This document shows, in pieces, positions 38,301-59,376 of a DNA stretch of 64,000 nt. The notes under the pieces are model-generated. The model worked only from the letters and a program-made list of their open reading frames with translations, was not told the origin of the DNA and ran no database searches. Origin of the DNA: Lewinellaceae bacterium SD302 (GTDB lineage: Bacteria; Bacteroidota; Bacteroidia; Chitinophagales; Saprospiraceae); NCBI GenBank assembly GCA_002591745.1, contig PDLQ01000003.1, forward strand, positions 1 through 64,000, written 5' to 3'. The stretch's first letter is position 1; each line of letters begins with the position of its first letter. The translations under genes were made by a program, and so were the position numbers.

Positions 38301-41300
38301 GATCGTTTGAGGGTATCCTTCACAATCCCAGCCCGCGATAAAATCAATCGTAGCATTTTCACAGTCATTCTTGGTAAAAAAAACAGTCAGCTCCTCAAAG
38401 CTGTTGCGCGAGATGGTCCCCAACGGATATATGCCAAATTCATTAGGTAAAACTTCAGTTCCATTCGCTCTTTCTACCCGATTGACTATTACGGCCCCAG
38501 AAGGTTCTGGATAAAAGAATGAATTAATGGCATCAATGGTAGAAACGTTTCTTACTCGAATCCGTGCATCATCGTAAGCGCTACACAGAAATACATTGTC
38601 CTCCACAGATTCTACTCTAAGGACCGCTGCCCCGAGGAATTCAAATGACCTATTAATCTGTTCCCGAGCAATCTCAGGCTGGCAATAAATATTTTCATCT
38701 ACTTCCTCGAAAAACTGGAAGTCGTACATATAACTCCCTACCATTGAAGCACAGCCTCCCTGAATACGCGGATAAATTTCTATTTGGTAACCTTCATCCG
38801 GCGGAATTTCCAGGTTTTCTAGGCTCTTGAGGTAATCACCGATCAGAAACGTCACCTCATCCTCGTTGCGAACAAAGTACTGAGCAGGTATATTATTCGC
38901 ATCCACGATGGTATTCACCGGCTCGACCAGTTGTCGAAGGCGAATTCTCCAATTGCTCAACACGTAGTTAAACTCAGCTGGTTTATTGAATACGAGACGA
39001 TCTGGAAGGGCAATAGACCTAATTTCATTAGTAAACTCATCTACGGCACTACCACCAATGTAGCGGCCATAGTTAATCCGCCAATTGGGCTGGTTACATG
39101 CACCGAAATTAGCGTTGGCAAAAGACTCGTCTGAAGTCAGTCCGACTTGAGTCATGCGAGCGTTCAACGAGCTACACTGGCCACCATCCAATGACATACC
39201 CGTTTCCGAAAGATAAAAGCGTGGCAGGTAATCTCGGATAAGGTAATCCGTTCCGGGCGGCAATACGTTTTTTTCTGTAAAATCCATGGTTACCAGCAAT
39301 TCGTCTCCGTCCAGGTAGCGATCAAAGTCAGTGGGCAATGCACAACCAAAGGCCTTCAATTGTGCTACGCTAAAGTCAATCACAATTCGCTGATTGGGTC
39401 CGTCAGCGGCAAGAGGCACAGCGCTACAAGTATAGATCGTACCATCTCGATCAATTGTAATGGTGGCCCCCAGGGGGGTAAAATCACCATGATCCAGTGG
39501 AAACTCTATGAATCCGAAAGCCAAATTTTGATCATTATCGGCATCTTGTACGGTAGCAGAGAATACCGCCCGCAAACTGTCGCCCCGCAAGTAACGGTCC
39601 GTTTGAGCAATAGCTGGATTTGCCGTATCCATTCCGTCCGGCACTTGGTTGTTGTCTGCATCTGCTAGTCCAAGGTTGGTACGAAACACCTGGAAATCCC
39701 CAAAACTAATACCGTCACATGCATCTCCACATGGCCCAGGGTTAGCACATTGGATACGGACATCTAGGTCATCAGGAGCCCATACCTTTTGAGTAGTACA
39801 ACTGGCCAAGCAACTGGGGTCGGATGTCAAATCAAATCTGGTTTGTATGATTTCGGTAAATACGAGCGCACTACAATCCGCCAAGTCTTTTTCAGTACAG
39901 TCTGCTACGACCATGAAGTCGAAATTAGCTCCGGCATTCATCTGGAATCCAGAGGGTCGATCAGCTGCATTAAAACGCACGATCAGTTGATCGATACTCC
40001 CCACAGTATTAACATCAGTATAGGTAACGGAACCCACTGGATATATTCTGTTATTCCGGTCCACCCACACCACGCTGTTAGGAACATAGTCCATAGCGCA
40101 GGGCAGTTCTACCACCATTTCAAGGTAAGCGTCGTTGAACTCATCAGTCATCCAGTCGAGCTCCATTTCGCTTACGAAGTAGCTGACTAGGCTCTGGTCC
40201 CCGTCGTTCACACTAGGAGGGCCTTCAGCCAAGCCATTGATAAAAGCGTTGTAGCGGTCACTTGGTGTAGTAGCGTCTCGATCTACATTCAGGTTTCCAC
40301 ACAGGTCAAAATAGTCCAGAATAGTTGTCCGATTGTAGTATTTATTTCGAACATCACAATCGTTGCAGTCGCAAGTAGCAGTAACTGCATAACTTACGGT
40401 AAATGACTGATCAACCTCCATTCTAAAGTCGGTCAACCGGTAGTCAATCAGCGTAATTCCCATTCCCTGACAAGTAGAGCCTGTCGTTGTATTTACGATA
40501 TCGAAATCCGTGATTTCATCGCCGGATTCATCGTCCGTTATGATAATGCTACTCCCATCGATCACCATCCCGCTGGTATTGTCAGTAAGAATCCGAAAGC
40601 CCGGGCTGATTGCAGGAGCCGTACCAACATTTGTTAATCGAACGGTAGCTAAGGTGGGCTCATCAGCGTAGCATGCCGGTCGTTCACTGGAGATGGTCGC
40701 TATACTAAGCTCAGGAAAACTACCGATAAAAGAAACCGAGGTGGGAACGTAGTCTCCTTGGGGCTTGTCCTGGCAGTCGTTATCTCCCTGACAGCCGTAC
40801 TGAGCACGCCGCAAGACATCCATCGGATCATCTACACATTCCACTACTTCCCAGGTCTCTTCAGCTAGGATGGTTTCCTGCTGCACAAACGGATCATTCA
40901 GCATCACTGTAAAACATTGTTGAGTGCCTACTACAAAATCCGGTGTAGTGCCGACATCGACGCCATCGACCACTAATCCTCTGAGTTCTACAGCCACAAG
41001 ATTGTTAGAAACGCAATAATTCATCACTTCCAGTGACCCAAAACCATTATTGACGATGCCAACTTCAACAGTCTGTATCTTACCGAAGAAGGCATCAATT
41101 GTCTGCGGATCAGTCTGAAAAGGAAGGGATAGGTCGGCAAAAATACGCTCCGAGGTAGTCCCTACGAGCGTATCCCCAGTAATGTTGTCACTGGAAGCAT
41201 TGCCGGTAAATTCAAAAGTAATAACGGAGGCATCACAGGAGAGCTGATAAGTAGCTTCGAAAACAGCCACTTCCCCAGGCCCGATGTCGCCCACCATTAC

Positions 41301-41561
41301 GTAGTTATTTGGTTGAAGCGTGCCGGTACCGCTCACGGACAACACGTTCACCCCGTTGGGGGCGGCCAGTTCCACCAAAACATTATTAGCTGTTTGTACC
41401 GGGTCCGTATTCTCCACCTGCACCTCGAAGGTGTTCAGCGGCCCGCAAACGGTTGATTGATCCGGTAGTACTCCGAGGGTGAGTTCAAGGCTCTGTCCGT
41501 CAATTGCGGTTGAGCATAGGAATAGAATTACTAGCAAGTAGTAAAAGGTCTTAAATTTCAT
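32307..41561 (-). CDS. Giant surface protein (3084 aa) with DUF11 and SdrD-B-like repeats
   Basis: A secreted protein with a signal peptide at residues 1-22 (MKFKTFYYLLVILFLCSTAI). Residues to about 1600 are beta-rich, Cys-containing repeats of DUF11-like type without clear family names. SdrD-B-like domains start near 1705 (LGDTVWFDFNENGLLDPGEP), 2680 (LGSTVFLDINNDG) and 2847 (VGDTAFVDLNNDG); each has a DxNxDG calcium loop. Four DUF11 domains start near 1928, 2098, 2287 and 2483 (YDLALTK, FDLALSK, YDLALIK, FDLAIFK), joined by Asp-rich linkers. The last 110 residues, ending ILRVDCGSFPWSGDD, have no type A T9SS signature but are shared with the next giant protein. A role in adhesion or as a cell-surface fibre is likely. 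Own terminator and leader show a single-gene unit. Confidence 0.85.
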   Translation of the reverse strand: MKFKTFYYLLVILFLCSTAIDGQSLELTLGVLPDQSTVCGPLNTFEVQVENTDPVQTANNVLVELAAPNGVNVLSVSGTGTLQPNNYVMVGDIGPGEVAVFEATYQLSCDASVITFEFTGNASSDNITGDTLVGTTSERIFADLSLPFQTDPQTIDAFFGKIQTVEVGIVNNGFGSLEVMNYCVSNNLVAVELRGLVVDGVDVGTTPDFVVGTQQCFTVMLNDPFVQQETILAEETWEVVECVDDPMDVLRRAQYGCQGDNDCQDKPQGDYVPTSVSFIGSFPELSIATISSERPACYADEPTLATVRLTNVGTAPAISPGFRILTDNTSGMVIDGSSIIITDDESGDEITDFDIVNTTTGSTCQGMGITLIDYRLTDFRMEVDQSFTVSYAVTATCDCNDCDVRNKYYNRTTILDYFDLCGNLNVDRDATTPSDRYNAFINGLAEGPPSVNDGDQSLVSYFVSEMELDWMTDEFNDAYLEMVVELPCAMDYVPNSVVWVDRNNRIYPVGSVTYTDVNTVGSIDQLIVRFNAADRPSGFQMNAGANFDFMVVADCTEKDLADCSALVFTEIIQTRFDLTSDPSCLASCTTQKVWAPDDLDVRIQCANPGPCGDACDGISFGDFQVFRTNLGLADADNNQVPDGMDTANPAIAQTDRYLRGDSLRAVFSATVQDADNDQNLAFGFIEFPLDHGDFTPLGATITIDRDGTIYTCSAVPLAADGPNQRIVIDFSVAQLKAFGCALPTDFDRYLDGDELLVTMDFTEKNVLPPGTDYLIRDYLPRFYLSETGMSLDGGQCSSLNARMTQVGLTSDESFANANFGACNQPNWRINYGRYIGGSAVDEFTNEIRSIALPDRLVFNKPAEFNYVLSNWRIRLRQLVEPVNTIVDANNIPAQYFVRNEDEVTFLIGDYLKSLENLEIPPDEGYQIEIYPRIQGGCASMVGSYMYDFQFFEEVDENIYCQPEIAREQINRSFEFLGAAVLRVESVEDNVFLCSAYDDARIRVRNVSTIDAINSFFYPEPSGAVIVNRVERANGTEVLPNEFGIYPLGTISRNSFEELTVFFTKNDCENATIDFIAGWDCEGYPQTINDATCTDPSQVALTSANSNADLLVVHPNRNSTAIIDLCDPIPFEGEILSTDLGFIRDIILTITLPPHVYYEAGTFEVAIPGGPGSTFVNYAIDPTEIGGSTYRIDLSVLDEVLNTIGLVGSKDPPNSSISFRFNAITECGYVSGQRSLFTINTRNSCNEPLAPVVRETGRLRTSDTEQDISLSVEAVDLVFNACSPETETLEITADLDGAVVSSADSIRVLLPSGITYVPDSYVPVQNAEPGNNPTVIRDQDGRQALIFPLDRPNNGEEVIRFNLDVIADDVGQNCQSYPIAVDAFAAAEYTCNGMTCESYASRGETIQMVEIRKPDLAFTDLSGDITLDPINGTATAQFTATVVNNGYPLMSGNNVTVAIYEDANGNGTFDPEADVFLFNIEETLGADLGTGESVTISGSETFMTANVCTVIAVLDPELTCTCNTRPSVTYRPEIVYEFPRDYEVCSGDQIMVGPDKIDGYNYGWVSVDGSDLGNLNPTDDSPTVFTAPVNNTGAPITLQYDLRVSTAPCFNDGRINVTIAPALNEMVNVQACAGGTYTLPTTTAEGASNFSWMPAAGLTITNNGSTATIDDIQLGMTTYVLTYDVGDGCAAFYTVNFTGLDCGPPEAALGDTVWFDFNENGLLDPGEPGIEGVTVYLVNANNGSIISTTMTAADGSYLFNALPAGNYAVQFVLPDGFVFTQGNQGGDDTDDSDADPVTGITPPMFVPLDSVDLNFDAGFIPDCSLELDVVVGPCQLSGDTLAQPLMVTARWLNNPYTYDQFGDGNDTLDLSINGVVYTIIASELSDTVLVIDSLINPVATTTFTVDAAFRESTSCTATTNSDPIAPCTYDLALTKTASTLELTPGPYVVGSLVCVDITVFNQGEQPVSNVQVYDSLPAGLTFAAAESALGWSNIAPLQLFTFPGPILPEESAVATLCARITNTGGGVDQYVNRAEINRFTSPSGSNLSAFDEDSQPDNNFSNDAGGEPNGPTDDITNGNPDDPLLPNDEDDSDPFQVAVFDLALSKMLAPAADQPTGRVNSFQIGDEIAFTITLINQGNQTAYAVEVHDSISEGLTLVSASVPATTQNGIPIMETSGLTGGGTSGYLVLDSLSVGDTVNVIVIGLVGDDVVPPIINYAEISAADDDQDPGNDAPTDVDSSPDDNLENDPGGMVNGDSDDATGGDGTGAVGSDSASTDEDDADAAQVPTYDLALIKFLDAESVSPNGNYPPGTEVTFNINVCNQGNEPVTNVTIIDYLPCGLDYLPGNTLNQMQGWTQTSPFAMTPPGQLDSVFLTLTEVLQPDSCRQVKITVARASTMMPDRCPLPLPMNFLTNAAEIRQFEDVDGNVQIDLDSSPDGVQDNDPGGMVNMVTDNQLNGNGTGPIPSDDPLTDEDDADPANLDAFDLAIFKVVDTLDNAPPYIFGEIVKFDIGIISQGNISANEVVISDLIPPGLSFDPSFGNNATAGDGSGWQPTAEGAMLTITDFTGLVNNDLLANSLGFFDTATVSIWLQIEPTAALLDEDYTNLAQIEMGTFINPMTGDPVTVDTDGDSPYGLGAGNDTGAGIGSDDDNETLDDEPGQDVDSQDPAFVMVAALSLGSTVFLDINNDGIQNGLDSGLSAVTVQLFNATTMMQVLTNSMGVPVDNPALASPVVTDSDGNYIFVNLPPGDYYVVIPSTPIGALVSSNNTGIPFLETDPDDDEDGDDDGLQPGGAGQPTTSGVITLSVMMEPTTADGEDAPGSEQDEMLPQVDNNGNMTLDFGFFQPVSVGDTAFVDLNNDGLQTPGEPGLENVTVVLLDVNGDTVTIDAEGNTISGITTTDADGFYEFPNLPLGIYQVLFDISTAVNAENYVFTQANVGNDDEIDSDATPVNDSIGLSNQTNYLTSGMNDPTLDVGVSCNVIVTVADPSTICSTRKIMLNQGASISPSGVGGVWSSPDGTGSFDDGTDFATATTYTPSPEDAARGSVTLVLTTNDPNGPCGTVSAQVTIQILRVDCGSFPWSGDD

Positions 41562-41626
41562 ACAAACATGCTTTAATACAAGAACTACTTCTCTTTTCTA
41601 AAAAAGAGTAAGCAATTAGAACAATC

Positions 41627-41726
41627 TTCGCATGAATGAAGGGTGCTTCCGAGACGGAAGCGCTTATGTGGTCGTATTTTTTTCATGCGAAAAACTCGAA
41701 TGCCGTGGCATTCAAAGTCGAATATA
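41627..41726 (-). promoter_or_regulatory. Promoter and structured 5' leader of the 3084-aa gene
   Basis: Read leftward: a -7-like TATATTCG (41719-41726), then 28 bases to a 10-bp perfect inverted repeat TTCGCATGAA / TTCATGCGAA (41682-41691 with 41627-41636). Between the arms lie AAAATACGACC and a perfect 7-bp hairpin GCTTCCG-TCT-CGGAAGC (41645-41661). The same box, spacing and TTCGCATGAA...CGACC motif precede the other giant gene, so this is a shared regulatory leader. Confidence 0.65.
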
Positions 41727-41774
41727 CAAAAATTTACTATTCGGGGGACGCATGTATTTATAACTACACAAAAA

Positions 41775-41900
41775 CTCCGGTCAGACCATTGCCGAACCGG
41801 AGCAAAACATCACTTGGGATAACTATAATTCGGCGTACAGATAGCACTGCTTCTATGAAGTCAAAAACCCGGCTTCACTGGATAACCAACGAAGCCGGGG
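41775..41900 (-). terminator. Tandem terminators of the 3579-residue protein gene
   Basis: Two hairpins in series on the minus strand: CCCCGGCTTC / GAAGCCGGG followed by TTTTTG (41900 to about 41862), and CTCCGGT / ACCGGAG followed by TTTTTG (41802 to about 41770). They end the upstream giant gene before the promoter of the next, so the two giants are separate transcripts. Confidence 0.8.
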
Positions 41901-41930
41901 AAATTAAAATATCAATCCAAAATCTTAGGT

Positions 41931-44900
41931 CTAATTACCGCCGTTCCAAAAGAATGATCCACAATCCACGCGCAGTATCTGGAAAGTCACCTGCTCGGTA
42001 ACAATACCGCAGGGGCCGCCGGGTTCGTTCGTCGTCAATATCAGCGTGACGGAGCCGCGGGCCGCGTCTTCGTCACTCGTGGTATAAGTTGTTGCCGTCG
42101 CGAAATCTGTACCATTGTCAAAGGTTCCCGTTCCGTCGGGTGTACTCCAGGTTCCGCCCAGCCCCACTGGGGTGATACTTGCACCCTCATTCAGTACTAT
42201 CCTTTGGGTAGAGCAAATCGTAGCCGGAGGAGCCAAGGTGACTGAAGTGGTACAAATTACGCCCGCATCCAGCGTCGGATCGTCGGTGCCCGAGGACAGG
42301 AAACCAGTTGGAGCGCTTACCCCAGTAGAGTCATTTATCGGAGTAGCGTCGCTGTCAACAGCGTCGTCACCACCCAGATCCGGCGTTACGAAAGCGTAGA
42401 ACTCAGCATCATTGGCCGTACTGATATCGAAACTCACTTGATAGTCGCCCGGTGGCAGATTCGTGAAGGAGTAGCTGCCGTCAGCAGCCGTCATGGTGAT
42501 GCCGGAGATCGGATTACCTTCGGCGTCCACAGTAATGGTATCGCCGGTAGCTACATCCAGCAGCACCACCGTTACCCCTTCCAAGACACCGTCGCCCGGC
42601 GTCTGGGTATCGCTTTCATCCAGATCAACGAAGGCCGTATCGCCCACACTGACGGGGGCAAAGAAGCCGAAGTCGAGGGTCATATTACCGTTGCTATCGA
42701 AGGCATCGTCTTGCAGGTTACCCTGGGCGCTTTCGTCCATGACTCCCGTGCCGTTCTCCGGCTCGTCACCTAAACTCAAAGTAATCGTTCCGCTGGTAAC
42801 GGCCGTGCCGCTTCCACCTGCCTGGATTCCTTCATCATCGTTATCCGTATTGTCATCCGGATCGGTTTCGACGAAAGCGATGCCCGTGTTGTTGGAGGAA
42901 ATGGGTGCATTCATCGGGGTGGTCGGGATAACTACGTAGTAATCACCCGGCAGCAAATTCGTAAAGTGGTAATTACCACTCCCATCCGTTAAGGTCGGGG
43001 CTACATCCATGGCATCCAGTACGCGCACACCCGCCGCGTCAGTCAATACCGGCATCATCGTCATAGCGTCGAACAACTGTACTTCGATCATCGGAATACC
43101 GTTGTCAGCGCCACTCTGGAGGCCGTCGTTGTTGTTATCCAGGAAGACTGTGCTACCCAGACTCGCTGTTTCAATGGAGAGCAAAGCCAGGTCAAAGTCA
43201 TCCGCGTCGGTCGGGTTATCCGGGGTACCGTCCCCATTCTGTCCATCGTCACTGTCTTCGTCGTCGATCTCCATATCCGGTGGCGTGTTTCCGTTATCTC
43301 CGGGCGTCGAATCATCATCCGGCAGCCCCAGGGCGTTTTCACCGGCGGTAATTTCCGCCAGGTTGGTGATGGAAGTTCCTTCGAAGTCCAAATCAATGGT
43401 AAAGCTGATTGACAAAGTAGCAGTGTCACCGGCGGCCAGATCGAAGGGCATTGTCGTACGGGCGGTATCCATATCCATCATCCAGTTCGCGTCGGCCACC
43501 AGGGTCAGTCCTTCGGGTACGTAGTCGGCGACTTCGACGTCGGTAGCGTCCAGGGTTCCCTGGTTACGAACTTCGATGGCGAAGGTTACCGTACTGCCGT
43601 AGGTGTAAGGAGGGGGCGTGGCCAACGTATCCAGGTACTTGACCAGGTTGAGGTCGAAGCTTTGCATGACGGGTATGCCTTCCCAATCGTAATCGTCTTC
43701 GTCATTGGGGTCATCCATATCCCCGGGTGAGCCTGGGTTTTCGTCGTCGTACTCATTCGGGGTATCGACCTCCGGATCGTCGTCACCATTGTCATTAGGC
43801 GTAGAGTCGAAGTCTTCCGGCGGAATGGTGTTCGGATCCCCGTCGTCGTCGAAGTAGGTAATTTCCGCACGATTGACCAGACTGTCGCCCATGAAGTCTA
43901 TGTCAATCACAAAGCTAATGGACAAGCTGGTAGAATCTCCCGCAACCAGATCAATGGAATCGATCAATCTTACGGTATCCACGTCTACCATCCAATCCGT
44001 CATCGAAGCAGGAGCGAGCGTTAGTCCTGCGGGTACGTAATCCGATACAACGATATCTACTGCATCATCTTCTCCCTGATTATAAACTTCCAGTTCGTAA
44101 GTTATCGTACTACCGGGCGTGAATGGGCCGGGATTGGCAAGGGTATCCAACCGCTTGACCAACGCCAGGTCAAACTTTTGATTGACCGTCGCGCAGATCA
44201 CGCCGATCGCGCCACTCTGGCTCGGTAGGTTGAACACAATTGAATCGAAGGAGGGCAAGCCTAATGAGTCCGCGGTGACGCTGATTATTCGGTTGGCGGT
44301 ACGATCACCAAAGACCACGCCATCTACTTCGAACGTGCTGCCGGACCCCGCCTCAAAGTCCGAGAACGGAATAGTAACGGAGCCGCCGGTTAAGGTACTG
44401 GCAAAGGTGACCGAACCCAGATTGGCGGGCTCCAGATCAATCAAATCAAAGGCAAACCGACCAAGGGGCAGGTCAGAATTAACGATCAAATCACCTCCTC
44501 CGGCGAAGTCATTCGGCTGGCTGATATCCGCCGTTTGATTGATGATCAATACATTGCCGAGCATTTCAGTAATGATGTTACCGTTATCCCACTGATTCGT
44601 TCCCGCACTATTCCGCTCCAGATCGGGATCGGCACCACCGGTGCCATCCGTATTGTACAGATTCAACGGATGATTGGCCTGATCATTCGTGGAAAAGCGC
44701 AGTCCCTCACCTGGGCCATAAAGATTGGCGTAAGGCTGATCGACAAAGACATTGGCTGCTCCCGCTACGAGTGGATTACCCATATCGTCCGTTTCAAAGT
44801 CGGCCAGATAGGAACAACCGTCATTCGTATCACACAATTCAGGCTCTTCTGCGACACCAAAATCATAAGTAGCGATGGGCTCTTCCGTCGTTTCAGGATC

Positions 44901-47900
44901 GCGGGCAGCCGTGGTCTGATTACCCTGAATCGCCCTGGCGGATACTCCGTTGAAGTTATCCGAGTCCTCGTCATCATCAGCGTTTCCACCAATATCAGCG
45001 ATCGTCGGTACCAAACCGAGATCGGTAAAAGCAGTCTGGTTACCATCGACCGAAATCAGGAAGTTCGGTTCTTCCGGAGCTAAAGTATCCCGGTAGTCTT
45101 CGTCCAGCAACAGGTTTCGGAAATCGTAGAAGCCGGGGTTACCCACTTGATCATTACGGGTTGTATCCGTCAGCATGATCTCGGTTCCATCCGCGTAGGT
45201 AATCCGCATCATAATGCCGACTCCGTTCAGACCGGTTTCGCCATCGTTTTGCAGACCGTTCCGATCGGCATCGATCCAGACATAGTTGCCCAAGGCCGCG
45301 GGATCTTTGTAGTAGCCAAAGTCCACGTTCAGGTTATCGGGAATGGCGTTGTCGATGGTCGCAGCGAAGGCATCTTCTTTTGAATTATCCATCGGATCAT
45401 TTCCGCCGTTGGTCGTAGGGTCTTGGTTACCGTTGGAATGCCAGTACCCGGCCAGTACGCCGTCCACGTCCGTCACGTTTACGATGTAGTCGTCCAGTGG
45501 CAGGTCTTCGAAGAGGTACATACCGTTGGCGTCGGTTGTTGTCGTTCCGATCCGGGGTTCGCCGGGGTCCAGTTCGCCGTTGCCATCCAGGTCGCGGTAG
45601 AGATCGATCGTCACACCGGCAATCGGCGCCTCGTCGTCGGAGTTTCCGGCTACGCCATCGGCACCGTCCGGTTCGTAGGTACCGTCGGCATCATCGTCTT
45701 CCCAAACCTGGTTGCCGATGCTTCCGAGCTGGTTGTTGTCGTCACCGACGTAACTAAAATCCTGATCCAGATCTACCGGGTCGGCATCCGTCAGCGTCAC
45801 TACTCCACCGACGTTATCGGGGTTGGTCGTCATATCGTCCGGATCGAAAGTATTGGCCAGGTCTTCCAGTGGTTGTCCCGGTTGAAAATTCGTCGGACTG
45901 ATCTTCACCTGGTAGCCCTCTCCGTCGGCATCTACGGGCAGACCGACGAAAAGATAATTTCCGTTCTCGTCCGTCATAATGGAGTCGATGATCACGTCAT
46001 CACCGCCACCGATAATTTCGTCGGCTCCCAGGTCGCAGAGGTAAACGGTTACGCCTTCGATTCCACTTTCGTCGGGGTCCTGGATACCGTCCTCATTCGC
46101 ATCGTACCATACATAGTCGCCAATGGCACCGAGTCCGACCTCCTGGTCTTCCGGGGTATAGCCAAAGTCCTGATCACGATCATTGGTATTGCCGGCGTTC
46201 AGTGCCACGGCGCTCAGTCCACCCACCATATCCGCGTCGTCGTTCAGGCCGGTTGCGTTCTCACCTGCTCCACCATCTTCGTCGAAGGTGTTTCGGAGGT
46301 TATCCAACACGTTTTCGACGTCGTTGACCCAGACGAGATAGTCCGCGTCTCCATCACCATCATCCAAAGGCAGGTCTTCGAAGAGGTAGTTACCATTTTC
46401 GTCCGTCAGGTCGGTAGCGATGATCGGTTCTCCGGCATCATACACCCCGTCACCGTCCGTATCGGAGATCAAACTGACCGTTACGCCCGGAATGGGCTGT
46501 TCATTATTATCGTCATCGGCTCCAAGTCCATTTTCTCCGTCTCCCAAGGGGTCGGCATCGGCGGGTCCGTTAGTATCCGCGTCGGCGTCCAGCCAGACGG
46601 TATTACCAATGCTCCCCAGGACGGTAGCGGGCTCTGGTTCATAGCCGAAGTCTACGTTCAGGAATACGTCACCCGGCCCAAGTACCACGGGATTAGTTGT
46701 TTCATCGTCGTCCTCCACGGTGTCGTCCGGGTTATCCGCCTCGCTGGTGGCGAAATGATCGGGGTCTGCCGTCTGGTCGTACTGAGCGTCATCCAGTACG
46801 GGGTGGCTGGCGTTATCGTCATCGGTAACTTCGACGGTGTAGGCACCGGGGGGTAGGCCGTCGAAGAGGTAGAAGCCATTTTCGTTCGTCGTGGTCGTTT
46901 GGCTTCCGTCGTCGGGAGTGCCAAGTAGTCCATCAGGACCGGGCGTCGTCAGGGTAAGTTCCACCCCACTTACCCCAATTTCGTTCGGGTCCTTAACTCC
47001 GTCGCCGTCACTGTCGATCCAGACCAAATCTCCCAGGGCGGCCGTCGGGCTATTCATTGGATTGTTGACGCTATCGGTCGGGTTGAAGTTGTAGCCGAAG
47101 TCGGCGGTCAGGTTCTCCTCTCCGGGATCCAGTACGATCAGGTAGCCGTCCGCGTCGTGGTCTTTATTGCCCAGGTCACCGTCGTCGGTTTCCAGGTCCT
47201 CATCGTCGCTGTCCACGATATTGGTGAAGATCGTCGTTTGGGTAATGCCCGGTGGCAACGTTGTTTCATCTACGTCGACGAAGTAGTCGCCTGCGTCCAG
47301 GTCGGGGAACAGATAACCACCATTCGCATCCGTATAAGTGGTGTCGATCGGGTCTCCATTTTCATCATTCAGGACAATGGCCACGTTGGGAATTCCTGCT
47401 TCACCGGCGTCCTGGAGTCCGTCACTGTTTTCGTCTAGCCACACGTAATTACCCAGGCTGGCTGGCAAAGTAGCAAGGGGAATGAAACCCACGTCGAGGG
47501 TGTGGTCCGTCGTATCGGCCGTATTGTAGCAGATGGCAGGCAGCATCGTTCCGTTTACGTCGATGGTCTCCGCGTTGGAGTCTCCAAAGAAAGGATTATT
47601 GCCTTCTCCGGTGGAGTCCATAGTTATGGCGTATTCCGCGCCGTTCACCAGGATGCTGGTATCGGACGGAGCCGTTGCCGCGTCGCCGAAAACAATCAGG
47701 TAGCTGGTGTCGGGCAGTACCTCTCCATTGGGGTCGATCCAAATTTCACCGGCCGAACCTCCTTCGGTGAAGTAATAGTTGCCCTCGGCATCGGTCGTAG
47801 TCATTGCTACTTGTGTCAGCCCCCCACCGTCATCTTTGGTGTAGAGGAAGACGGGGACGTTAGATAGTGGCTCTTCGCAGGCATCTTGAATGCCGTCCAG

Positions 47901-50900
47901 GTCGGTGTCGATCCAGGCGTAGTTACCGATTTGAAGCGCAGGTGGAGGGCAAGTGATCTCCACGTCTCCTAGACCGTTACTTTTACCGAAAGTACCGACG
48001 TCGGTTATTCCGTAAACTCTCCGACCACCACTCTTTGTGCCGTCCGTGTTCGACAGTTTAACAGTTCCTCCCGAGCCAAATTGATCGCTATCACCATCAA
48101 TCGGATCGTAAACGGTTAGTATGACTTCTCCACTACCGGGCAGTAGAGCAACACTTCCAAGGCTAGTTTCTTCGTGGGCTATTTGGTCATCGTTAGTCTG
48201 TGGTGTACCGTTCGTAAAGTTGTAAAAATCTCCTTGGTAGAACTCGCCGTTCTGCGGGAAGATACCGGGCCCTTGCTGATTGCCGACTCCGCCGGACAAA
48301 CCACCGACCTGACCATTGTCTTCCAGTTCGAAAAACCCTTGATCGTCAGATGCCGCCCTCAGGATATCACCGCCGGAGATTACCGTCCAGGTACTGTCGA
48401 CCGTTCCGGCCGGGCTTAAATTGTTAATGCCCATTTGGTGTCCCGTCCGATCGAAAAAGGCCATGATGATGGAGCCATCTACGTCAAATTCGATATCACT
48501 CAAAACGGGTTGTGGATGAATAACCACCGGACGACCTACCGTATTCTGGGTGTTATAGGCAAACGTTAGCTCCGTAAAGTCATCTTCCCAAGGCAACCAG
48601 TTACCGAGGCCAGAGGCAGCAGGCACGTTTGCCTGCACTCTGCCTTTTTGGTAGTTGAGCGGGTAGGAAAGTACTTCTGCGAAACCATTATCAGTCAGAA
48701 CCGCTACGGATGCAATCAGATCATCGCTCGTACCATTCTGAGCATCACAAACCCCACCGACATAGACTTTCCCTTCGTGTACGTTGAGCGCAAAGGGGCG
48801 CCAGTTTCCGTTTTCACACCCCGGATCGAGCGTCGGGTAAGTGTTAGTTACCGTTTGGCCGGCAATATCGATCTCGTAAAGCGTTTTATCGGCCAGACTG
48901 ACGGCGTAAAGCGTCTGCCCGTCCTCCGAAATGTCGATGTCTCCAAGTCCCGTTTTTGCAACCAGATCAAAGGTTGCGGGGTCGCGGCTGGTTCCGTCAG
49001 CGTTGCCGAGATTACGCGAGGCTTCCGTGGGAAATCCGCTAACGTCCAGACCGAAGTCAGCCAAATCGATTAGCGTAGTTACCTGATCAGACGCGAAATT
49101 GTACTGATAGATTGCTCCTGGTCCTTCATCTCCCATCCCTACGTGACGTTTGGTAAAGGCTCCGGTGTAAACTACGTCACGTCGCGAGTCGTATGCTAGA
49201 GACCAGACTGACCCGAGCTCTCCCTTATTAGCCAGAATATCGGGAGCAGCCTCACCGGTTTCATCATAGTCGTAAGCAACCAAGACGTCTCCCGGGCCGG
49301 TACCGTCCGTAGCTCCATTAACAAAACAGGTCAGCATGACCCGGATGTCATCGGAAGTATCATCGCCGTCTGCATCCCCCCCGCAGTAAGCAGGGTCATA
49401 GACACCATAGTCGACCTCACAACTGGATACATCTACAAATTGCACCTCGGTACCGTTATCCGTGCCACTGAGGGCGGGATCAAGGAAATCCTGCATTGGC
49501 GTAGAAAACTCTACGCGTACCGGATAGGTAATATTCGTATCTTCCACGCTCCAGGCCCCATTGGCGTTGGTCCAGGTGGTTGCTACGGGCACGGGGTTGT
49601 CACATTCGTAGACTTCAACCAACACGCTTTCCTGTCCGGGTTCTCCTGTGTCTTCGGTCCCGTTACTATTTAGATCCTGGAAAACACTACCGCCCAGGGC
49701 ATCGGTGCATTCGGGGGTGCAAGCGATCAGATCGACAATTCCAATTACCTCGCAATCAACATTGTTGATAAAATTAGCTTCGACCACCAGATCATAACCC
49801 GGACCACTTACGCCCGCAAAGTTCACCGTGGTCATACCCGTAGCGGTATTAAGCTGGGCCGTGGTTTCCGTTTGACCGGCAATATTAACCTCAATAGCGT
49901 CAGAAGTTATGGGCAATAATTCGGAATTCCAGCTTAAGCTGACCTGAACCGCAAACGTACTCTGTCCCGTCATCGGGTCAAAAGTACAGCTCGGATCGAT
50001 CGCCGTTATCGACAACTCACAGGATGCAGGGCGGAATCCTACGTCAAGTCCATGGTTATTTTCTCCGGCTTCTCCGGTAGTAAAGGCGATCACTCCTATA
50101 GCGGAAGCATCGGAATCGTTAATATCCGTAAGGTTATCGTTCGTAGCATCTCCATTGGCATTCTGGGGGGAGAACTCGAAGATATTTGCGTTGACGGCCT
50201 GAGCGTCAGCCAAATCAACCCGAACCTCATAATTCATATTCGGTAACATCTCGCTCTCCGCGGAGAAGGTCCAGTCTTGATTGGCATCACCATCGTCGCT
50301 GAAGATGTAAATACCGTTCCCCTGGGCGGCGTCCGCCGCGGTCGTCGTCTCTGCTACTTTGAAGAACGTACCCGTGCCATCATCTTTGTAGAGTTCGACC
50401 AAAACTCCATTGAGACCATTCTCATCGGCATCCTGCAAACCATCGCCGTCGGTATCCACCCACAGGCGGTTGCCGATTTCCAAAGGCGCCGCATTACTAA
50501 CACCTTCCAGGTCACCCAGTCCGTTACCCTTTGCGAAGGTACCGGCATCAGTTGGCGTGGCGTATATCTGGTTTCCGCCGTTTCTCGCACCGGTAGTATT
50601 GCTCAGACTGATGATCCCCGCGTTATTGAACGGTAAGTTCCAGTCGTCCAGAGGATCGTAGACGGAAGTGAGCAGATTTAGCTGGCCGTTGAAGTTAAAA
50701 ATACCCCCGAGGCTCGTTTCGTCGTGGCCCTGTTCTCGCACGTTGCCCTGGAGGGGCGGATCCATATCCATAACGTCGAGCGCACATCCGGGCTGAAACT
50801 GGTTGTCGGGCGGAGCGTTCGCCGGGCGGTAGCGGTCGTCGTAAAAGAACTCTCCACCGCCAGGGCCTTCGCCCTGGCCCTGACCTAGCGTCGGGCCGAA

Positions 50901-52670
50901 GGGGAGCCCATTGACGCCGTTTGTGGAGTTGTTTTCCAGTACGAAAGTCGTATTGTCCGTGGTGTTCAGCGAGGCCACCAGTACGTCACCGGCACCATCC
51001 GCGGTGAAAGAGGTGTTCGGATCATTAGCCGCCAGTGGGTTCGGTGGGACCTGGTTGTAGCCGTGCTGATCGGCAAAGCGGTCGCGGAGTCCGATAACCA
51101 TTCTGCCATCTTCCGTGAACTCGATGTCCGTGATCCAGGGCTGGGGGTAAGCGCGTTCCGGGACAGATCCGCCTTCCGTGGCCATGGTTACCGCTGAAAA
51201 GGTCGTGGCGTCGTAGACCGGTGACCAAGGGTTGAATTCCGCCAAGGCATTATTACTACAAAAGTCAATGGCCTGCTCGCGCGGGTAGTTGAGCGGAAAA
51301 CTTAAAAGTTGGGTAAAAGCGTCCGTCGTCGGGTCGAACTCATAAACGAATCCTTCCATTTGCGTACGATCTCCGGTGTTGCTTACCGTACTATTAACCG
51401 GATTGAATACTACCGTAGATTCAGCGGTACTTACCAGGCCAATGTAGATTTTGCCCCGGTACTTCTTGACGGCAAAAGGTCGGATATCGGTATCCCGAGA
51501 CAGGGCCGTTCCAGGCAGGCCCGGAAGATCCGTAAGGTCTCCCCCGGCCGGCCAGGTCGAAATCGAAGCCAATGCTGGTGGCGTTGGATTGGCCGGAGTT
51601 CCACCCAGCGGAATCTCGTAAAGCCGGCGGTCCGCCAGATTAATGGTCCATAAAGTGTTGGTGTTCGACTCGTAGGCTAGCCCCCCCAAACCGACTTTAC
51701 CTACCGCATCGTAAGCCAATGGATCACGGTCGAAGTCAGTAGCGGCCACGTTGGGATGGGGATTGACACCAGCGGTAATGGGTCCGAAGAGAGCATTCAA
51801 ATCCACGATGGTTGAAACACCAACGCCGCTGATCGGAGCCGTCGGTTCATCTCCGTTCAGATCAACTTTGTAAATCGCTCCCGTACCGGAAGGCCCGAAG
51901 CCGGCGTGTCGTTTGGCGAAAGCAGCGGCAAACACGCTGTTCGAAGCCCGCCCGTAACTCACCCCGAAAGTGGCACCGATCTCATCGTGATCCGCTACGT
52001 AGTACTCGGTCGGGTTCACGGTACCGGGGCCCGGGGTCAGGCTACTTTCGGGAACGATCACCAGTACGTCTCCATTGACATTGGGGCCGCCGGGTGCAGC
52101 CGATCCTTCGACGTAACAGGGAACGACCAGGAAAATATCGTCCGGGTAGTATTCGTCCGGATAATGTAAGGCAATATTTACTGTTTCACCCTGACTGGCG
52201 AAAGCCACCGTTGTAGCTCCGGCCGTACTCGGCTCCAAGCCAGGGGCGAGACCGGTCACCTCGATTCGGTAGGTAGCCGTATTCCCCGGGGTAAAAGCAT
52301 AACTGCCATCCGGCTGGACCGTTAGTACCGTAGGCGCATTAAGCGCATCATAAGCAGTAACGGTAACGTTGCTGATGGGGGGATCTGCGGCTCCGTCATC
52401 CGTACCATTACTATTATAATCAATGAAAACGTTGACGCAGATCGACGTCGGATCCCCCGAAAATGCCGTCTTATGTAGATCTTCCAAAAGACCTGGATCA
52501 GCCAATACGTAGACCTTCTCCCCTAGATACGCCGGGTTGGCGTAAGCGAGGATGTTGGTACCAAAGCTACCGTCGATCTTATTGGGAAAGAGTACGTTCG
52601 CACTCAAGTGGGGAACGAATACTACGAATAGAGTTAATAGCGCCAGGACGCTAGTGTAATTCTTTTTCAT
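41931..52670 (-). CDS. Giant surface protein (3579 aa) with duplicated propeller-like module and about twelve SdrD-B-like repeats
   Basis: A signal peptide (residues 1-24, MKKNYTSVLALLTLFVVFVP) is followed by an SdrD-B-like unit near 75. Two related propeller-like modules of about 450 residues, near 198-680 and 1125-1530, share the phrases GDVLV, YSxAFAKRHxGxGxxGxGAIY, GLGxL and TLxxINLADRxLYEI. SdrD-B-like repeats start near 728, 993, 1581, 1738, 1880, 2019, 2181, 2315, 2458, 3170 and 3343, each with a D-x-D-x-DG calcium loop. A lectin-like segment lies at about 2615-2790 and two DUF11 domains at about 2831 and 3003. The terminal domain ends ILRVDCGSFFWNGGN as in the other giant. No type A T9SS signal is present. 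Probably a calcium-stiffened surface fibre; ligand unknown. Confidence 0.85.
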   Translation of the reverse strand: MKKNYTSVLALLTLFVVFVPHLSANVLFPNKIDGSFGTNILAYANPAYLGEKVYVLADPGLLEDLHKTAFSGDPTSICVNVFIDYNSNGTDDGAADPPISNVTVTAYDALNAPTVLTVQPDGSYAFTPGNTATYRIEVTGLAPGLEPSTAGATTVAFASQGETVNIALHYPDEYYPDDIFLVVPCYVEGSAAPGGPNVNGDVLVIVPESSLTPGPGTVNPTEYYVADHDEIGATFGVSYGRASNSVFAAAFAKRHAGFGPSGTGAIYKVDLNGDEPTAPISGVGVSTIVDLNALFGPITAGVNPHPNVAATDFDRDPLAYDAVGKVGLGGLAYESNTNTLWTINLADRRLYEIPLGGTPANPTPPALASISTWPAGGDLTDLPGLPGTALSRDTDIRPFAVKKYRGKIYIGLVSTAESTVVFNPVNSTVSNTGDRTQMEGFVYEFDPTTDAFTQLLSFPLNYPREQAIDFCSNNALAEFNPWSPVYDATTFSAVTMATEGGSVPERAYPQPWITDIEFTEDGRMVIGLRDRFADQHGYNQVPPNPLAANDPNTSFTADGAGDVLVASLNTTDNTTFVLENNSTNGVNGLPFGPTLGQGQGEGPGGGEFFYDDRYRPANAPPDNQFQPGCALDVMDMDPPLQGNVREQGHDETSLGGIFNFNGQLNLLTSVYDPLDDWNLPFNNAGIISLSNTTGARNGGNQIYATPTDAGTFAKGNGLGDLEGVSNAAPLEIGNRLWVDTDGDGLQDADENGLNGVLVELYKDDGTGTFFKVAETTTAADAAQGNGIYIFSDDGDANQDWTFSAESEMLPNMNYEVRVDLADAQAVNANIFEFSPQNANGDATNDNLTDINDSDASAIGVIAFTTGEAGENNHGLDVGFRPASCELSITAIDPSCTFDPMTGQSTFAVQVSLSWNSELLPITSDAIEVNIAGQTETTAQLNTATGMTTVNFAGVSGPGYDLVVEANFINNVDCEVIGIVDLIACTPECTDALGGSVFQDLNSNGTEDTGEPGQESVLVEVYECDNPVPVATTWTNANGAWSVEDTNITYPVRVEFSTPMQDFLDPALSGTDNGTEVQFVDVSSCEVDYGVYDPAYCGGDADGDDTSDDIRVMLTCFVNGATDGTGPGDVLVAYDYDETGEAAPDILANKGELGSVWSLAYDSRRDVVYTGAFTKRHVGMGDEGPGAIYQYNFASDQVTTLIDLADFGLDVSGFPTEASRNLGNADGTSRDPATFDLVAKTGLGDIDISEDGQTLYAVSLADKTLYEIDIAGQTVTNTYPTLDPGCENGNWRPFALNVHEGKVYVGGVCDAQNGTSDDLIASVAVLTDNGFAEVLSYPLNYQKGRVQANVPAASGLGNWLPWEDDFTELTFAYNTQNTVGRPVVIHPQPVLSDIEFDVDGSIIMAFFDRTGHQMGINNLSPAGTVDSTWTVISGGDILRAASDDQGFFELEDNGQVGGLSGGVGNQQGPGIFPQNGEFYQGDFYNFTNGTPQTNDDQIAHEETSLGSVALLPGSGEVILTVYDPIDGDSDQFGSGGTVKLSNTDGTKSGGRRVYGITDVGTFGKSNGLGDVEITCPPPALQIGNYAWIDTDLDGIQDACEEPLSNVPVFLYTKDDGGGLTQVAMTTTDAEGNYYFTEGGSAGEIWIDPNGEVLPDTSYLIVFGDAATAPSDTSILVNGAEYAITMDSTGEGNNPFFGDSNAETIDVNGTMLPAICYNTADTTDHTLDVGFIPLATLPASLGNYVWLDENSDGLQDAGEAGIPNVAIVLNDENGDPIDTTYTDANGGYLFPDLDAGDYFVDVDETTLPPGITQTTIFTNIVDSDDEDLETDDGDLGNKDHDADGYLIVLDPGEENLTADFGYNFNPTDSVNNPMNSPTAALGDLVWIDSDGDGVKDPNEIGVSGVELTLTTPGPDGLLGTPDDGSQTTTTNENGFYLFDGLPPGAYTVEVTDDDNASHPVLDDAQYDQTADPDHFATSEADNPDDTVEDDDETTNPVVLGPGDVFLNVDFGYEPEPATVLGSIGNTVWLDADADTNGPADADPLGDGENGLGADDDNNEQPIPGVTVSLISDTDGDGVYDAGEPIIATDLTDENGNYLFEDLPLDDGDGDADYLVWVNDVENVLDNLRNTFDEDGGAGENATGLNDDADMVGGLSAVALNAGNTNDRDQDFGYTPEDQEVGLGAIGDYVWYDANEDGIQDPDESGIEGVTVYLCDLGADEIIGGGDDVIIDSIMTDENGNYLFVGLPVDADGEGYQVKISPTNFQPGQPLEDLANTFDPDDMTTNPDNVGGVVTLTDADPVDLDQDFSYVGDDNNQLGSIGNQVWEDDDADGTYEPDGADGVAGNSDDEAPIAGVTIDLYRDLDGNGELDPGEPRIGTTTTDANGMYLFEDLPLDDYIVNVTDVDGVLAGYWHSNGNQDPTTNGGNDPMDNSKEDAFAATIDNAIPDNLNVDFGYYKDPAALGNYVWIDADRNGLQNDGETGLNGVGIMMRITYADGTEIMLTDTTRNDQVGNPGFYDFRNLLLDEDYRDTLAPEEPNFLISVDGNQTAFTDLGLVPTIADIGGNADDDEDSDNFNGVSARAIQGNQTTAARDPETTEEPIATYDFGVAEEPELCDTNDGCSYLADFETDDMGNPLVAGAANVFVDQPYANLYGPGEGLRFSTNDQANHPLNLYNTDGTGGADPDLERNSAGTNQWDNGNIITEMLGNVLIINQTADISQPNDFAGGGDLIVNSDLPLGRFAFDLIDLEPANLGSVTFASTLTGGSVTIPFSDFEAGSGSTFEVDGVVFGDRTANRIISVTADSLGLPSFDSIVFNLPSQSGAIGVICATVNQKFDLALVKRLDTLANPGPFTPGSTITYELEVYNQGEDDAVDIVVSDYVPAGLTLAPASMTDWMVDVDTVRLIDSIDLVAGDSTSLSISFVIDIDFMGDSLVNRAEITYFDDDGDPNTIPPEDFDSTPNDNGDDDPEVDTPNEYDDENPGSPGDMDDPNDEDDYDWEGIPVMQSFDLNLVKYLDTLATPPPYTYGSTVTFAIEVRNQGTLDATDVEVADYVPEGLTLVADANWMMDMDTARTTMPFDLAAGDTATLSISFTIDLDFEGTSITNLAEITAGENALGLPDDDSTPGDNGNTPPDMEIDDEDSDDGQNGDGTPDNPTDADDFDLALLSIETASLGSTVFLDNNNDGLQSGADNGIPMIEVQLFDAMTMMPVLTDAAGVRVLDAMDVAPTLTDGSGNYHFTNLLPGDYYVVIPTTPMNAPISSNNTGIAFVETDPDDNTDNDDEGIQAGGSGTAVTSGTITLSLGDEPENGTGVMDESAQGNLQDDAFDSNGNMTLDFGFFAPVSVGDTAFVDLDESDTQTPGDGVLEGVTVVLLDVATGDTITVDAEGNPISGITMTAADGSYSFTNLPPGDYQVSFDISTANDAEFYAFVTPDLGGDDAVDSDATPINDSTGVSAPTGFLSSGTDDPTLDAGVICTTSVTLAPPATICSTQRIVLNEGASITPVGLGGTWSTPDGTGTFDNGTDFATATTYTTSDEDAARGSVTLILTTNEPGGPCGIVTEQVTFQILRVDCGSFFWNGGN

Positions 52671-52736
52671 GCGATACGATTAAAAAGCCTTAGCCCCAGC
52701 CGTATTCACGGATGGAAGTGTTTCAAATACAGTATT

Positions 52737-52851
52737 GCATGAGTGGGAAAGGGGGGTGGCAGCAAGAAGACAACTGTCCCGGCCGCCAAGAATTGGTCGT
52801 TATTTTTTCATGCGAATACTAAACAAAAACTTAAATACAACTTCAAATATA
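52737..52851 (-). promoter_or_regulatory. Promoter and structured 5' leader of the 3579-aa gene
   Basis: Read leftward: an exact -7 box TATATTTG (52844-52851), then 28 bases to TTCGCATGAAAAAATAACG followed by ACC (52816-52795), 20 of 22 bases identical to the leader of the other giant gene. GCATGA (52808-52813) can pair with TCATGC (52737-52742) across 65 bases. The leader to the start at 52670 is about 165 bases. Confidence 0.65.
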
Positions 52852-52948: not shown

Positions 52949-55900
52949 TTACGGCTTGCGCACAAAGCGTAAGCTTTCCCTGCTTTCGCCGGTCTGAATA
53001 ACGACCAAGTAAACACCAGGTAATAAGTCAGCCACGGGTAGTGCGAAGTTATCCTGCCGCCCCGCCCAACCGGACGAATAAGTTGCCACGGTTTTGCCTT
53101 CAACTGTGGTGATGGTGAAGGTTGCCGCGACGGACTCGGGTAAATGATAACCAGTTCTGAGATAAATGAAGTCGCTGGCCGGGTTGGGGTATAATTGCCA
53201 GGCATCTCCTGCGGATATTTGCTGCGATTGATGACCGGTGAAACCCGAGCCACCAGGCATCCCGGTTGCGGATAAGGTAACCGTATAGTCTTCCACCTCA
53301 CCGTAAGTAAAGGTCTGGCAACTGGTCGCATAAGCATTCCATTGCATGATTACCCGCATTCTGATACTATTCACTGCACCAGCCGGAATATTAACCGATC
53401 CGCTTACGGTAGAACTACCGGCTCCCTGGAAGGCAAGTTCTCCGGAATCCGTAAAGTCACCGTCTCCGTTAAAATCGAGATATACTCTCCAGAATTCGTT
53501 GTAGCTGCTACCGGCAAAACCGGGCGTCAGGCTAACACTGGCCGCAGCACCGGGGGCGGCGCTGAAGTTTACGCTAGCGGTAAAGTCGGCATAACCGCCA
53601 TTATTGCCGGAGTTATTATTCTGGCCATTAAAATTAACGGCCTGAATAAACTCATAGTTCGTGTTATTGCCTTGGGCTCCACAATAGTTGACGGGGCAGG
53701 CCGCGCAATCCGGGCCACCACAATCGACACCAGTCTCGTTACCATTCTGAATGCCGTCACTACAGCTCGGGCAGGCGACGCAGTCCGGTCCACCGCAGTC
53801 GACACCGGCTTCGCTACCGTTTTGAACACCGTCGTTACAAGTCGGGCAGGCCACACAATCAGGACCACCACAATCGACACCGGTTTCGCTACCGTTTTGA
53901 ACACCGTCGTTACAAGTCGGGCAGGCCACACAATCAGGTCCACCACAATCAACGCCGGTTTCGCTACCGTTCTGAATGCCGTCATTACAGTTGAAACAGG
54001 GCGCACAATCAGGGCCACCACAATCAACGCCGGTTTCATTACCGTTCTGAATGCCGTCATTACAAGTCGGGCCACCGGAAGAAGCGCCAAAAGCAAAGTA
54101 TGCCACCTGCTCCGTTGTATGGGCCCGCTCGGTATCTCCGGCAACATCTTCGTCGAATGCCAATGACAGTTGGCTGGAGGTAAACGGCGTATTGCCATAA
54201 AGGACTGGCCAACCACCATTGTTACCATCCATCGCCGCCGCGCTTACTATGGCCGCCTGGGCACCGCTAAGTCCATTCAGGTTATAGTTAAAACCAGTAC
54301 TTGTGTTGGTGATGCCTTGTACGATATCGCTACCCAAACCGGCAGTGTACTCTGTACCGTCAACTGTCCCGTTTCCGGCTTCGATAACCAGGTAGCCGAC
54401 CGTTTCGTTGGCGCGGGTGTTATCCGGATCTTCTCCAACGTTTTTACCCGCCGCAAAACTACTGGGAGTCGGCGGGGTCGTGCGCGAGCCATTGGCCGAC
54501 GCCCAGAAGACGGACCAGTCCGCATCATTAAAGGTCATTATCTGACCGACAACCACCGGGCTGGAATAAGCCTGCTGGTAAGTTCTGGATTCGAAAGCCC
54601 AATTATTGTTCTCCGCAGTTACCGTGGAGTTAAATTTAACGGCCTCCATTTTTATCCCATCATTCGCAAGCGTATAGACACCTTCTTCCACCACGGTATA
54701 GTGGATGGTGTAGACTGACGAAGTAGCAGTGCTGGTGGTCTGGACACGAAGATCGAAGCTACTGCCGGCGGCGTTCCGAACCCGGGTTACCACCGGTACC
54801 TGAGCAGAACTTGGCATAACTACCGAAGCGACCACTACCATTGAATTATAGTTATTGGCAAGTGGTACCGTCACCCAGCTTTCACCAATGTTATTCAAGG
54901 TACCGTATTCAAGTTGCAGTCCGGCTAGCGGGCAGCTGGTCGGGCAACTTCCACCGCAGTCGACACCAGTTTCGTCTCCGTTCTGGATGCCGTCGAAACA
55001 GGTCGGGCAAGCCGCACAGTCAGGACCGCCACAATCAACTCCGGTTTCCCCTCCGTTCTGAATGCCGTCGAAACAGGTTGGGCAGGCCGCACAATCAGGT
55101 CCACCGCAGTCGACACCCGATTCGTCACCATTTTGCACGCCGTCATCACAAGTTGGGCAAGCGGCACAGTCGGTACCACCACAGTCGACGTCGGTTTCGT
55201 TACCGTTTTGAATACCGTCGTTACAAGTTGGGCTACAACTCGTTAAAGGACCAGTACTGGTGGTGCCAGAAGTACAAGTATTATCGGCAGCATCGCGGAA
55301 ATTGATGTTTGCCGCACCTCCGCTGGCTGCTACACTGAAGCTGGTTGAATTGCCGGAGTTGACGTTGGCAGCGATCTCTACGCCGTCCAGTAAAACATCG
55401 TACGCTCCGCTACCATTATTTACCGTAGCAATTACGGTAATTGCAATTGAATCATCAGCCGTACTGACCGTATTGAAGCCGTTACAGGATTGACTGACAA
55501 TATTACCGCTCACACTACATCCCGGTGGATCACTGTAATCGGCGATATAGAAATCGTCGAAGTAAAATCCATCGGAGCGTTTACTGCTATTTTGAACCGA
55601 GACGAAACGGAATCTTACGGATTGTCCGATGAAACTGCTGAGGTCTACGCTTTGATGGGTCCAGCGCTCATTCTCCTTGTAACCCGGGCCGCCCGCAATC
55701 GTTTCCATAGCATCCGTACTGACGTTAGACCAGGAACTACCACCGTTGGTACTAATCTGTAAGCGTACGTAATCCGAAGTGAGCCACAAGCCCCATTTGG
55801 CGGCAAACTCTAGCCTCGGGTTAGCTGCACCAGCAAGAGATACCGAGCTATTCATTGCGAAGGCCCGGTTGTTGTTGCTCGCGGAGTGACTGATGCGGGA

Positions 55901-59177: not shown

Positions 59178-59192
59178 CTGAAAAAAGGAAAT
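59156..59192. promoter_or_regulatory. Perfect 16-bp inverted repeat over the antitoxin start
   Basis: ATTTCCTTTTTTCAGG (59156-59171), loop AAACA, and CCTGAAAAAAGGAAAT (59177-59192) are perfectly complementary. The GTG start of the antitoxin begins in the loop. It can be a DNA operator for the AbiEi protein, or in RNA a hairpin that hides the start codon, or both. Confidence 0.75.
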
Positions 59193-59376
59193 AGTTTATT
59201 GCCATTTTATTTACAGTCGTCATGCATAGAGGGAAAATGCTCCTAACCAGCCTTGCTACGTTGAAGTCACAAAAAATTAGCCTGTAGCGAATCTTCTGCA
59301 TTGAGTCGAATTGAACCTAATACAGAAAAGCTTGTTAAAATAGATGTACATACATCAATTATCAAATTCACCGTCT

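Follow-up and report, generated by a model that had tools for sequence, protein, structure and literature searches.

A 22-base leader motif of two giant surface-protein genes as a probable target of an antisense small RNA family in Saprospiraceae

Two giant surface-protein genes, A and B, lie in the window analysed here (the whole stretch of 64,000 nt), and each carries a near-identical 22-base motif in its leader. What might such a motif do? Making surface proteins with thousands of residues is expensive, and to our knowledge the timing of their production in environmental Bacteroidota has been little studied. We consider it likely that a trans-acting small RNA, named sRNA1 here, binds the 22-mer and represses translation of the giant surface proteins. 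We infer from the comparisons below that sRNA1 is expressed and that it pairs with these leaders in vivo, to a repressive effect.

The shared leader motif and its folding

The features of the locus are collected in Table 1. The C-terminal parts of proteins A and B are 46% identical over ~800 aligned positions and, judged from this alignment, the two genes are paralogous in these parts. The motif copies before them (sites A and B) agree at 20/22 bases and are spaced 11.1 kb apart, as the earlier note on this DNA had described for two genes ~11 kb apart, and the whole own genome holds no third place matching the 22-mer with up to three mismatches. The note had also remarked that the rest of the leaders is dissimilar; indeed, besides the motif, the 700-nt upstream stretches of A and B have only short matches in common, among them TCGCATGAAAAA of the motif, which recurs at the gene B start codon. 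Sites A and B lie 125 nt and 141 nt upstream of their respective start codons. In both leaders TTCGCATG follows a TATATTYG box by 27 nt, so that the equal spacing claimed earlier holds, with a value of 27 in place of 28. The promoter role given to these boxes, as -7 elements at the same distance from the motif, is less secure: TTG is absent 17–24 nt upstream of both, and gene B has a rival promoter-like pair, TTTG-N21-TAATTTTG, which by its sequence is a better promoter candidate than the TATATTYG box of this gene. An equal promoter distance for the two genes is therefore not secured. With a score of 17, the similarity between leaders A and B ranks joint second among the 496 leader pairs in the window (top score 18). 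The motif is thus real, yet the similarity alone is not above chance, and its weight comes from relatives of this genome.

Table 1. Features of the locus and own-genome copies of the small RNAs (window positions unless a contig is named)
Feature	Position	Strand	Sequence	Remark
Gene A	32307..41561	−		3084 aa; SdrD_B + DUF11 domains
Gene B	41931..52670	−		3579 aa; SdrD_B + DUF11 domains
Gene C	52949..57646	−		1565 aa; M14 peptidase with secretion-sorting tail
Leader site A	41691-41670	−	TTCGCATGAAAAAAATACGACC	antisense to sRNA1 core; overlaps 5' arm of hairpin P1
Leader site B	52816-52795	−	TTCGCATGAAAAAATAACGACC	antisense to sRNA1 core
Box, gene A	41726-41719	−	TATATTCG	TATATTYG; putative promoter element, no -33 element
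Box, gene B	52851-52844	−	TATATTTG	TATATTYG, 27 nt before site B
Alternative promoter-like pair, gene B	52861-52854	−	TAATTTTG	TTTG (52886-52883) 21 nt upstream; 37 nt before motif
P1 3' arm, leader A	41627..41636	−	TTCATGCGAA	predicted alternative partner: start-codon region 41566-41557
Inner perfect hairpin, leader A	41645..41661	−	GCTTCCG-TCT-CGGAAGC	
Start-codon region, gene A	41557..41566	−	TTTGTATGAA	predicted alternative partner of P1 3' arm
P1 5' arm, leader B	52808..52820	−	AGTATTCGCATGA	overlaps site B
P1 3' arm, leader B	52731..52742	−	TCATGCAATACT	predicted partner: 52820-52808 or start-codon region
Second antisense match, gene B	52660..52681	−	AATCGTATCGCATGAAAAAGAA	over own start codon
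Own sRNA1 copy (L131, L106)	contig C71, 162208-162284	+		98 kb past window
Own copy, second sRNA class (L212)	C87:13135-13214	+	TTTTCRTGAGATTATGAT (core)	own terminator

The folding described for leader A was confirmed. GCATGA of the motif pairs with TCATGC within a perfect 10-bp inverted repeat, P1 (41691-41682 / 41636-41627, minus strand), which encloses a second perfect hairpin of 7 bp. Leader B has a corresponding helix overlooked in the earlier note, AGTATT-C-GCATGA / TCATGC-AATACT, of 12 bp with one bulge. In predicted folds the first half of the motif accordingly pairs with a downstream arm over 10–12 bp in A and over these 12 bp in B. The folding z-scores are -2.64 for leader A and -1.31 for leader B. 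Perfect 10-bp inverted repeats spanning up to 100 nt account for 19 overlapping 10-mers at 11 separate places of the window; 20 Markov sequences gave 7.3 on average and never more than 15.

The earlier note had read the motif as a riboswitch-like or protein-binding mRNA leader and had named a search upstream of orthologous genes as the check on this reading. In the upstream regions of the A and B orthologues examined, the motif was not found. Near-exact copies numbered nine outside the own genome among 100 genomes (own included), against seven for a reversed control, and two of the nine (L013, L014) are small RNA copies read on the opposite strand; with up to three mismatches, the 20 other genus genomes gave a background level of 15 matches compared with 27 for the control. 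A near-exact search of 84,980 genomes returned four matches (Nitrosomonas twice, Herbaspirillum and Paraburkholderia), which we take as chance, and one of viral contigs returned none. A comparison of the window with Rfam (E up to 5) yielded nothing but a tRNA and a single antisense RNA below threshold, and no catalogued RNA matched leaders A and B, in agreement with the statement that no known leader RNA fits. Background-level matches in relatives, together with orthologous leaders lacking the motif among those examined, led us to reject a conserved riboswitch or leader family. What survives of the earlier proposal is a probable regulatory element of the giant surface-protein genes; the self-contained leader does not. 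As a separate observation, TTCCGATGAAAAAAATGCTACC or a one-base variant of it is present at L061, L064, L065 and L070, in the genus genomes G014, G005, G008 and G003.

A rival reading would be a self-contained cis element, a structured leader with P1 and the A-run/CGACC junction recognised by a ligand or protein. Both leaders do share P1, an A-rich junction, an inner hairpin and a C/T-rich stretch, and the outer halves of P1 differ between A and B yet still pair. The genus-wide background just described speaks against such an element, as do the orthologous leaders examined, the lack of an Rfam match and a fold of leader B at a z of only -1.31; moreover, the A homologue of a genome of another genus (G033, see below) retains a long antisense match in its leader with letters unlike the A/B motif. 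We regard this explanation as unlikely.

A small RNA family with a near-invariant core

The looser pattern GAAAAAN{2,4}ACGACC has 126 matches in 21 genus genomes; of 30 loci read, 28 fall within open frames 187 codons or longer, and sRNA1 was reached via one of the other two, along with 13 further stretches. It is a recurring intergenic element that shows AGGTCGTC-T(7-9)-CATGAGATTATGAT(T)TGTTTGTGCC on the opposite strand, with a hairpin rich in GC and a T-run coming after it. The short form of the core is AGGTCGTC-T-run-CATGAGATTATGA, or AGGUCGUC-U-run-CAUGAGAUUAUGAUUUGUU as RNA. Across ten genus genomes the core is near-invariant while the flanks vary. Six pairs of the terminator hairpin show changes on both sides, with the T-run following, and so do two pairs of a short hairpin that precedes the core in the genus. 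RNAalifold pairs ten core positions with one another, all of them invariant, and an open seed is our assumption.

A covariance model of the element (R1, E<=0.01) matched 42 of 148 genomes, the own one included. Thirty loci were fetched, one per genome; the core pattern occurs in 24 of them, twice in three. Ten of the 24 are from the own genus (21 genomes) and 14 from further genera within its family, and the six loci lacking the pattern (L133, L138, L146 and L149-L151) were left uncounted. Across 395 genomes of the class the model found only the own genome at E<=1e-4, which is a rough bound, as 12 candidates per genome were scored and few of these genomes belong to the own family. The half-core CATAATCTCATGAAAA, with one mismatch allowed, is present in 25/25 genomes chosen as positive for the small RNA, partly by construction, and in 0/10 genus genomes that have no model match. 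None of nine scanned genus loci of sRNA1 reached the threshold of an Rfam family, in a searched copy that possibly lacks the FopS model, and nothing on such a family was apparent in the parts we saw of the literature on small RNAs of Saprospiraceae, Haliscomenobacter and Lewinella, on Bacteroidota adhesins and surface proteins, and on FopS.

The genes beside sRNA1 vary among genomes (translations resemble a pyrD-like protein, a membrane protein and an S41 protease), which argues against a cis-acting attenuator. A core and an intrinsic terminator kept irrespective of the neighbours would be the anatomy of a trans-acting small RNA. The own copy starts ~85 nt past the stop of a DUF7619 gene with a secretion-sorting tail (DUF11 sub-threshold), and sRNA1 could be derived from a 3' UTR; a similar neighbour seems to be repeated at L103 and L014.

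In total, three RNA classes with a common core TTTTCRTGAGATTAYGAT and separate terminators are found in the genus, two of them brought to light by the half-core pattern; the own genome has copies at C71:162208 and C87:13135. The second class, convergent with a ~154-aa gene in several loci, occurs in ten genus genomes, namely the own one and those of L215, L216, L218, L221-L223 and L228-L230; an upstream block like AAAGCACTAAAGATG stands in nine of these loci, in two of the nine as a variant, and is absent from L222. The third class, CATGAGATTACGATTTGTC with a long terminator stem, is present in six genus genomes (L214, L217, L219, L220, L224, L227) and has the strongly conserved upstream sequence ACTTACTACC...TTTTCTCCCC. 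Genome G015 holds two more near-copies of a core half, GATAATCTCATGAAAA (L225, L226), adjoining a nearly identical GC-rich stretch; ARAGORN placed no tRNA beside them. The idea that the leaders mimic the small RNA was also considered and rejected, as their resemblance to it in the sense orientation did not go beyond shuffles.

Antisense matches at leaders and start codons

The reverse complement of the core was aligned locally with 3196 overlapping 80-nt stretches covering both strands of the window. The top score, 32, belonged to leader B; leader A shared second place with 30, and the true start of gene B came fifth with 28, the start of gene A being a weak match (18). Two stretches at a T-rich hairpin near 59160 tie with leader A; positions 59155-59193 form a perfect, terminator-like 17-bp inverted repeat (TATTTCCTTTTTTCAGG...). 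Markov-shuffled cores reached the score of A in 6/5000 cases and that of B in 1/5000, and shuffled leaders did so in 10 and 1. Among 275 sampled gene starts of the own genome (-200 to +60), B was again first and A joint second. Local alignment was adopted in place of a whole-core RNAduplex scan, in which the A stretch came first of 6394 and the B leader was not among the best 25 listed, since long GC-rich duplexes blur that ranking. The small RNA was found with part of the motif, so that the match of A and B to the core is partly circular and only the genes of other genomes are independent targets, these being related to each other.

We therefore scored genes of other genomes, identified by protein homology, against each genome's own core. 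The best of 118 starts in G015 is that of the B homologue, which matches the core at 25/29 positions across the start codon and scores 42 (next 30). Among 127 starts of G006 the homologue of gene C, the M14 peptidase gene, leads with a score of 36 for a leader site at -168..-146; the B homologue, with CTCATGAAAAAAA on its start codon, follows in second place. G002 has AATCATAATTTCATGA on the start codon of its A homologue (second of 61) and a leader site at -177..-152 of its gene C homologue (third of 61). The B homologue of G018 ranks first of 22, and among 48 starts of G005 the B homologues include one joint first and one joint third. A 2657-aa SdrD_B giant of G013 with ATCATAATCGCATGAAA on its start codon is first of 55, and as it falls outside the homologue set it was counted as background. 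Misses occur as well: for gene C, G015 gives 69 of 119 and the own gene, whose start is a weak match to the core, 21 of 277; one B homologue each in G005 and G002 ranks ninth (of 48 and of 61); the A homologue of G013 scores 22 at -33, and a B-like gene of G003 scores 22 away from its start. Few sites reach the length of those in A and B: among the non-sRNA loci inspected, the gene C leader of G006 alone is similar.

We pooled 13 A, B and C homologues, the own gene C among them and the rest from six other genus genomes, with genes A and B themselves left out; comparing them with 695 other starts gave an AUC of 0.935. Against 76 background genes starting with MK, p was 3.3e-6. The nominal Mann-Whitney p of 2.1e-8 for the full comparison overstates the enrichment, because the proper AUC baseline is 0.65, not 0.5: 200 shuffled cores had a mean AUC of 0.65 (sd 0.08), and 0/200 reached 0.935. 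Eight of the 13 homologues scored at least 26; with shuffled cores this number averaged 0.6 and never exceeded 3. Control AUCs were 0.65 for the reversed core, 0.66 for the complemented core and 0.79 for the sense core, the last perhaps due to TCATGA being its own reverse complement.

Further genes were scored outside this pool. The A homologue of G033 leads 73 starts with a site at -128..-90, about the same position as site A. Its score of 36 was reached by 1/5000 shuffled regions and 24/5000 shuffled cores; the site reads CATAGAAAA and contains no ATG. In G042, also of another genus, an SdrD_B giant has AACAAATCATAATTTCATGAAAA over its start codon with 22/23 matched (score 42), in a sample of only two starts. 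The SdrD_B giants of G109 and G014 lead small samples of 7 and 3 starts, and the best match in G021 (28, 12 starts) ends on an internal ATG, which may be the true start of its SdrD_B giant.

Could the motif be a leftover of duplication, or a chance match of A-rich leaders, with the antisense match amounting to the context TCATGAAAAA in which secreted proteins commonly start? The C-terminal paralogy of A and B, the joint second rank of their leader similarity and the shuffled-core AUC of 0.65 would all fit such an origin. The enrichment nevertheless holds against MK-starting genes and against every shuffled core, and the matches in G015, G042 and G033 extend far beyond the common context, so we hold this origin to be improbable. 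Still less probable is an upstream reading frame or decoy start, in which translation from ATGAAAAAA in the motif, over 33 codons in A and as MKK-stop in B, would control the main gene. The frames at the motif are as stated, its TCGCATGAAAAA equals the true start of gene B, and the gene C leader of G006 also reads ATGAAAAAATAA; however, the A and B peptides disagree despite 20/22 identical bases, and the site in G033 has no ATG. A leader peptide with a conserved frame or start codon was rejected on these two grounds.

Computationally, the sRNA1 family is firm, as is the antisense match that it shows to the starts of many giant genes, and on these alignments the two leader motifs are probable sRNA1 targets.

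A predicted switch and its relation to known systems

How might sRNA1 act on these mRNAs? Its core is predicted to be antisense to the start-codon-like sequence CATAATCTCATGAAAA...GACGACC and would pair with either the translation start or an upstream leader site of giant SdrD_B genes, the neighbouring M14 peptidase gene being a putative further target in some genomes. Lying over a start codon, which is where many of the predicted targets have their match, sRNA1 would block ribosome entry. Such plain occlusion is not applicable to gene A, as its site lies 125 nt upstream and its start scores only 18. Let us assume, then, that in A and B sRNA1 occupies the leader site and displaces the 3' arm of P1; the freed arm might fold onto the start codon, and net repression would be expected. 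The arm and the small RNA would share partners, which would explain why the leader motif resembles the start of gene B.

Predicted hybrids of sRNA1 at sites A and B have energies of -22.8/-21.2 kcal/mol, with opening costs of 5.3/4.5 kcal/mol. When the site was blocked in the fold of leader A, expected arm-to-start pairs rose from 0.6 to 9.6, with seven control blocks giving at most 0.5, and start accessibility fell from 0.47 to 0.17. In leader B the pairs rose from 0.6 to 8.9, a value equalled by some of eleven control blocks, and accessibility fell from 0.43 to 0.27, while some control blocks lowered it as much or more (0.18–0.19 in longer constructs). The modelled folds suggest that upstream binding silences the start through a relay of the freed arm. 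A bolder scheme, which we put forward tentatively as possible rather than likely, would be a three-way switch: complementary partners are contested by the sRNA core, the leader arm and the true start codon; the small RNA takes the upstream start-like copy and the arm seals a start more than 120 nt away, and a paralogous sRNA copy behind another secreted-protein gene lets one surface locus silence others.

Like riboswitches and protein-binding leaders, the 5' leaders of A and B are structured, with two exclusive pairings predicted; they differ in having no conserved aptamer in the orthologues examined, and the proposed input is an RNA. A closer parallel is the FopS/GibS and RbpB system, whose paralogous multicopy small RNAs share a conserved seed and carry an intrinsic terminator, and in which FopS sRNAs repress susC at its start codon in Bacteroides thetaiotaomicron (PMC11697453). 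The sRNA1 family resembles it in being paralogous within a genome, in its conserved core and intrinsic terminator and, with the misses given above, in its complementarity to start codons of surface-protein mRNAs. It differs in that the predicted targets are giant SdrD_B proteins and the M14 peptidase, not SusC, and in having a hairpin before the core (in the genus) and leader sites 125–141 nt upstream with a predicted switch; the comparison is one of anatomy and description. If our reading is true, FopS-type logic would apply to giant surface proteins as well as to glycan transporters, and a widespread small RNA with an almost invariant antisense core would be a directly testable candidate regulator whose short sequence predicts further targets.

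Small RNAs of the MicF and VrrA type act antisense on outer membrane protein mRNAs. sRNA1 has sub-threshold Rfam matches to both (MicF RF00033, 31.6 bits; VrrA RF01456, 27.1 bits; gathering scores 79 and 50), which probably reflect the U-rich stretch and the terminator. Lastly, we note two SdrD_B giants from outside the genus that match the core in antisense over long stretches, one in the leader (L293:9172, minus strand) and the other at the start codon (L305:917, plus strand).
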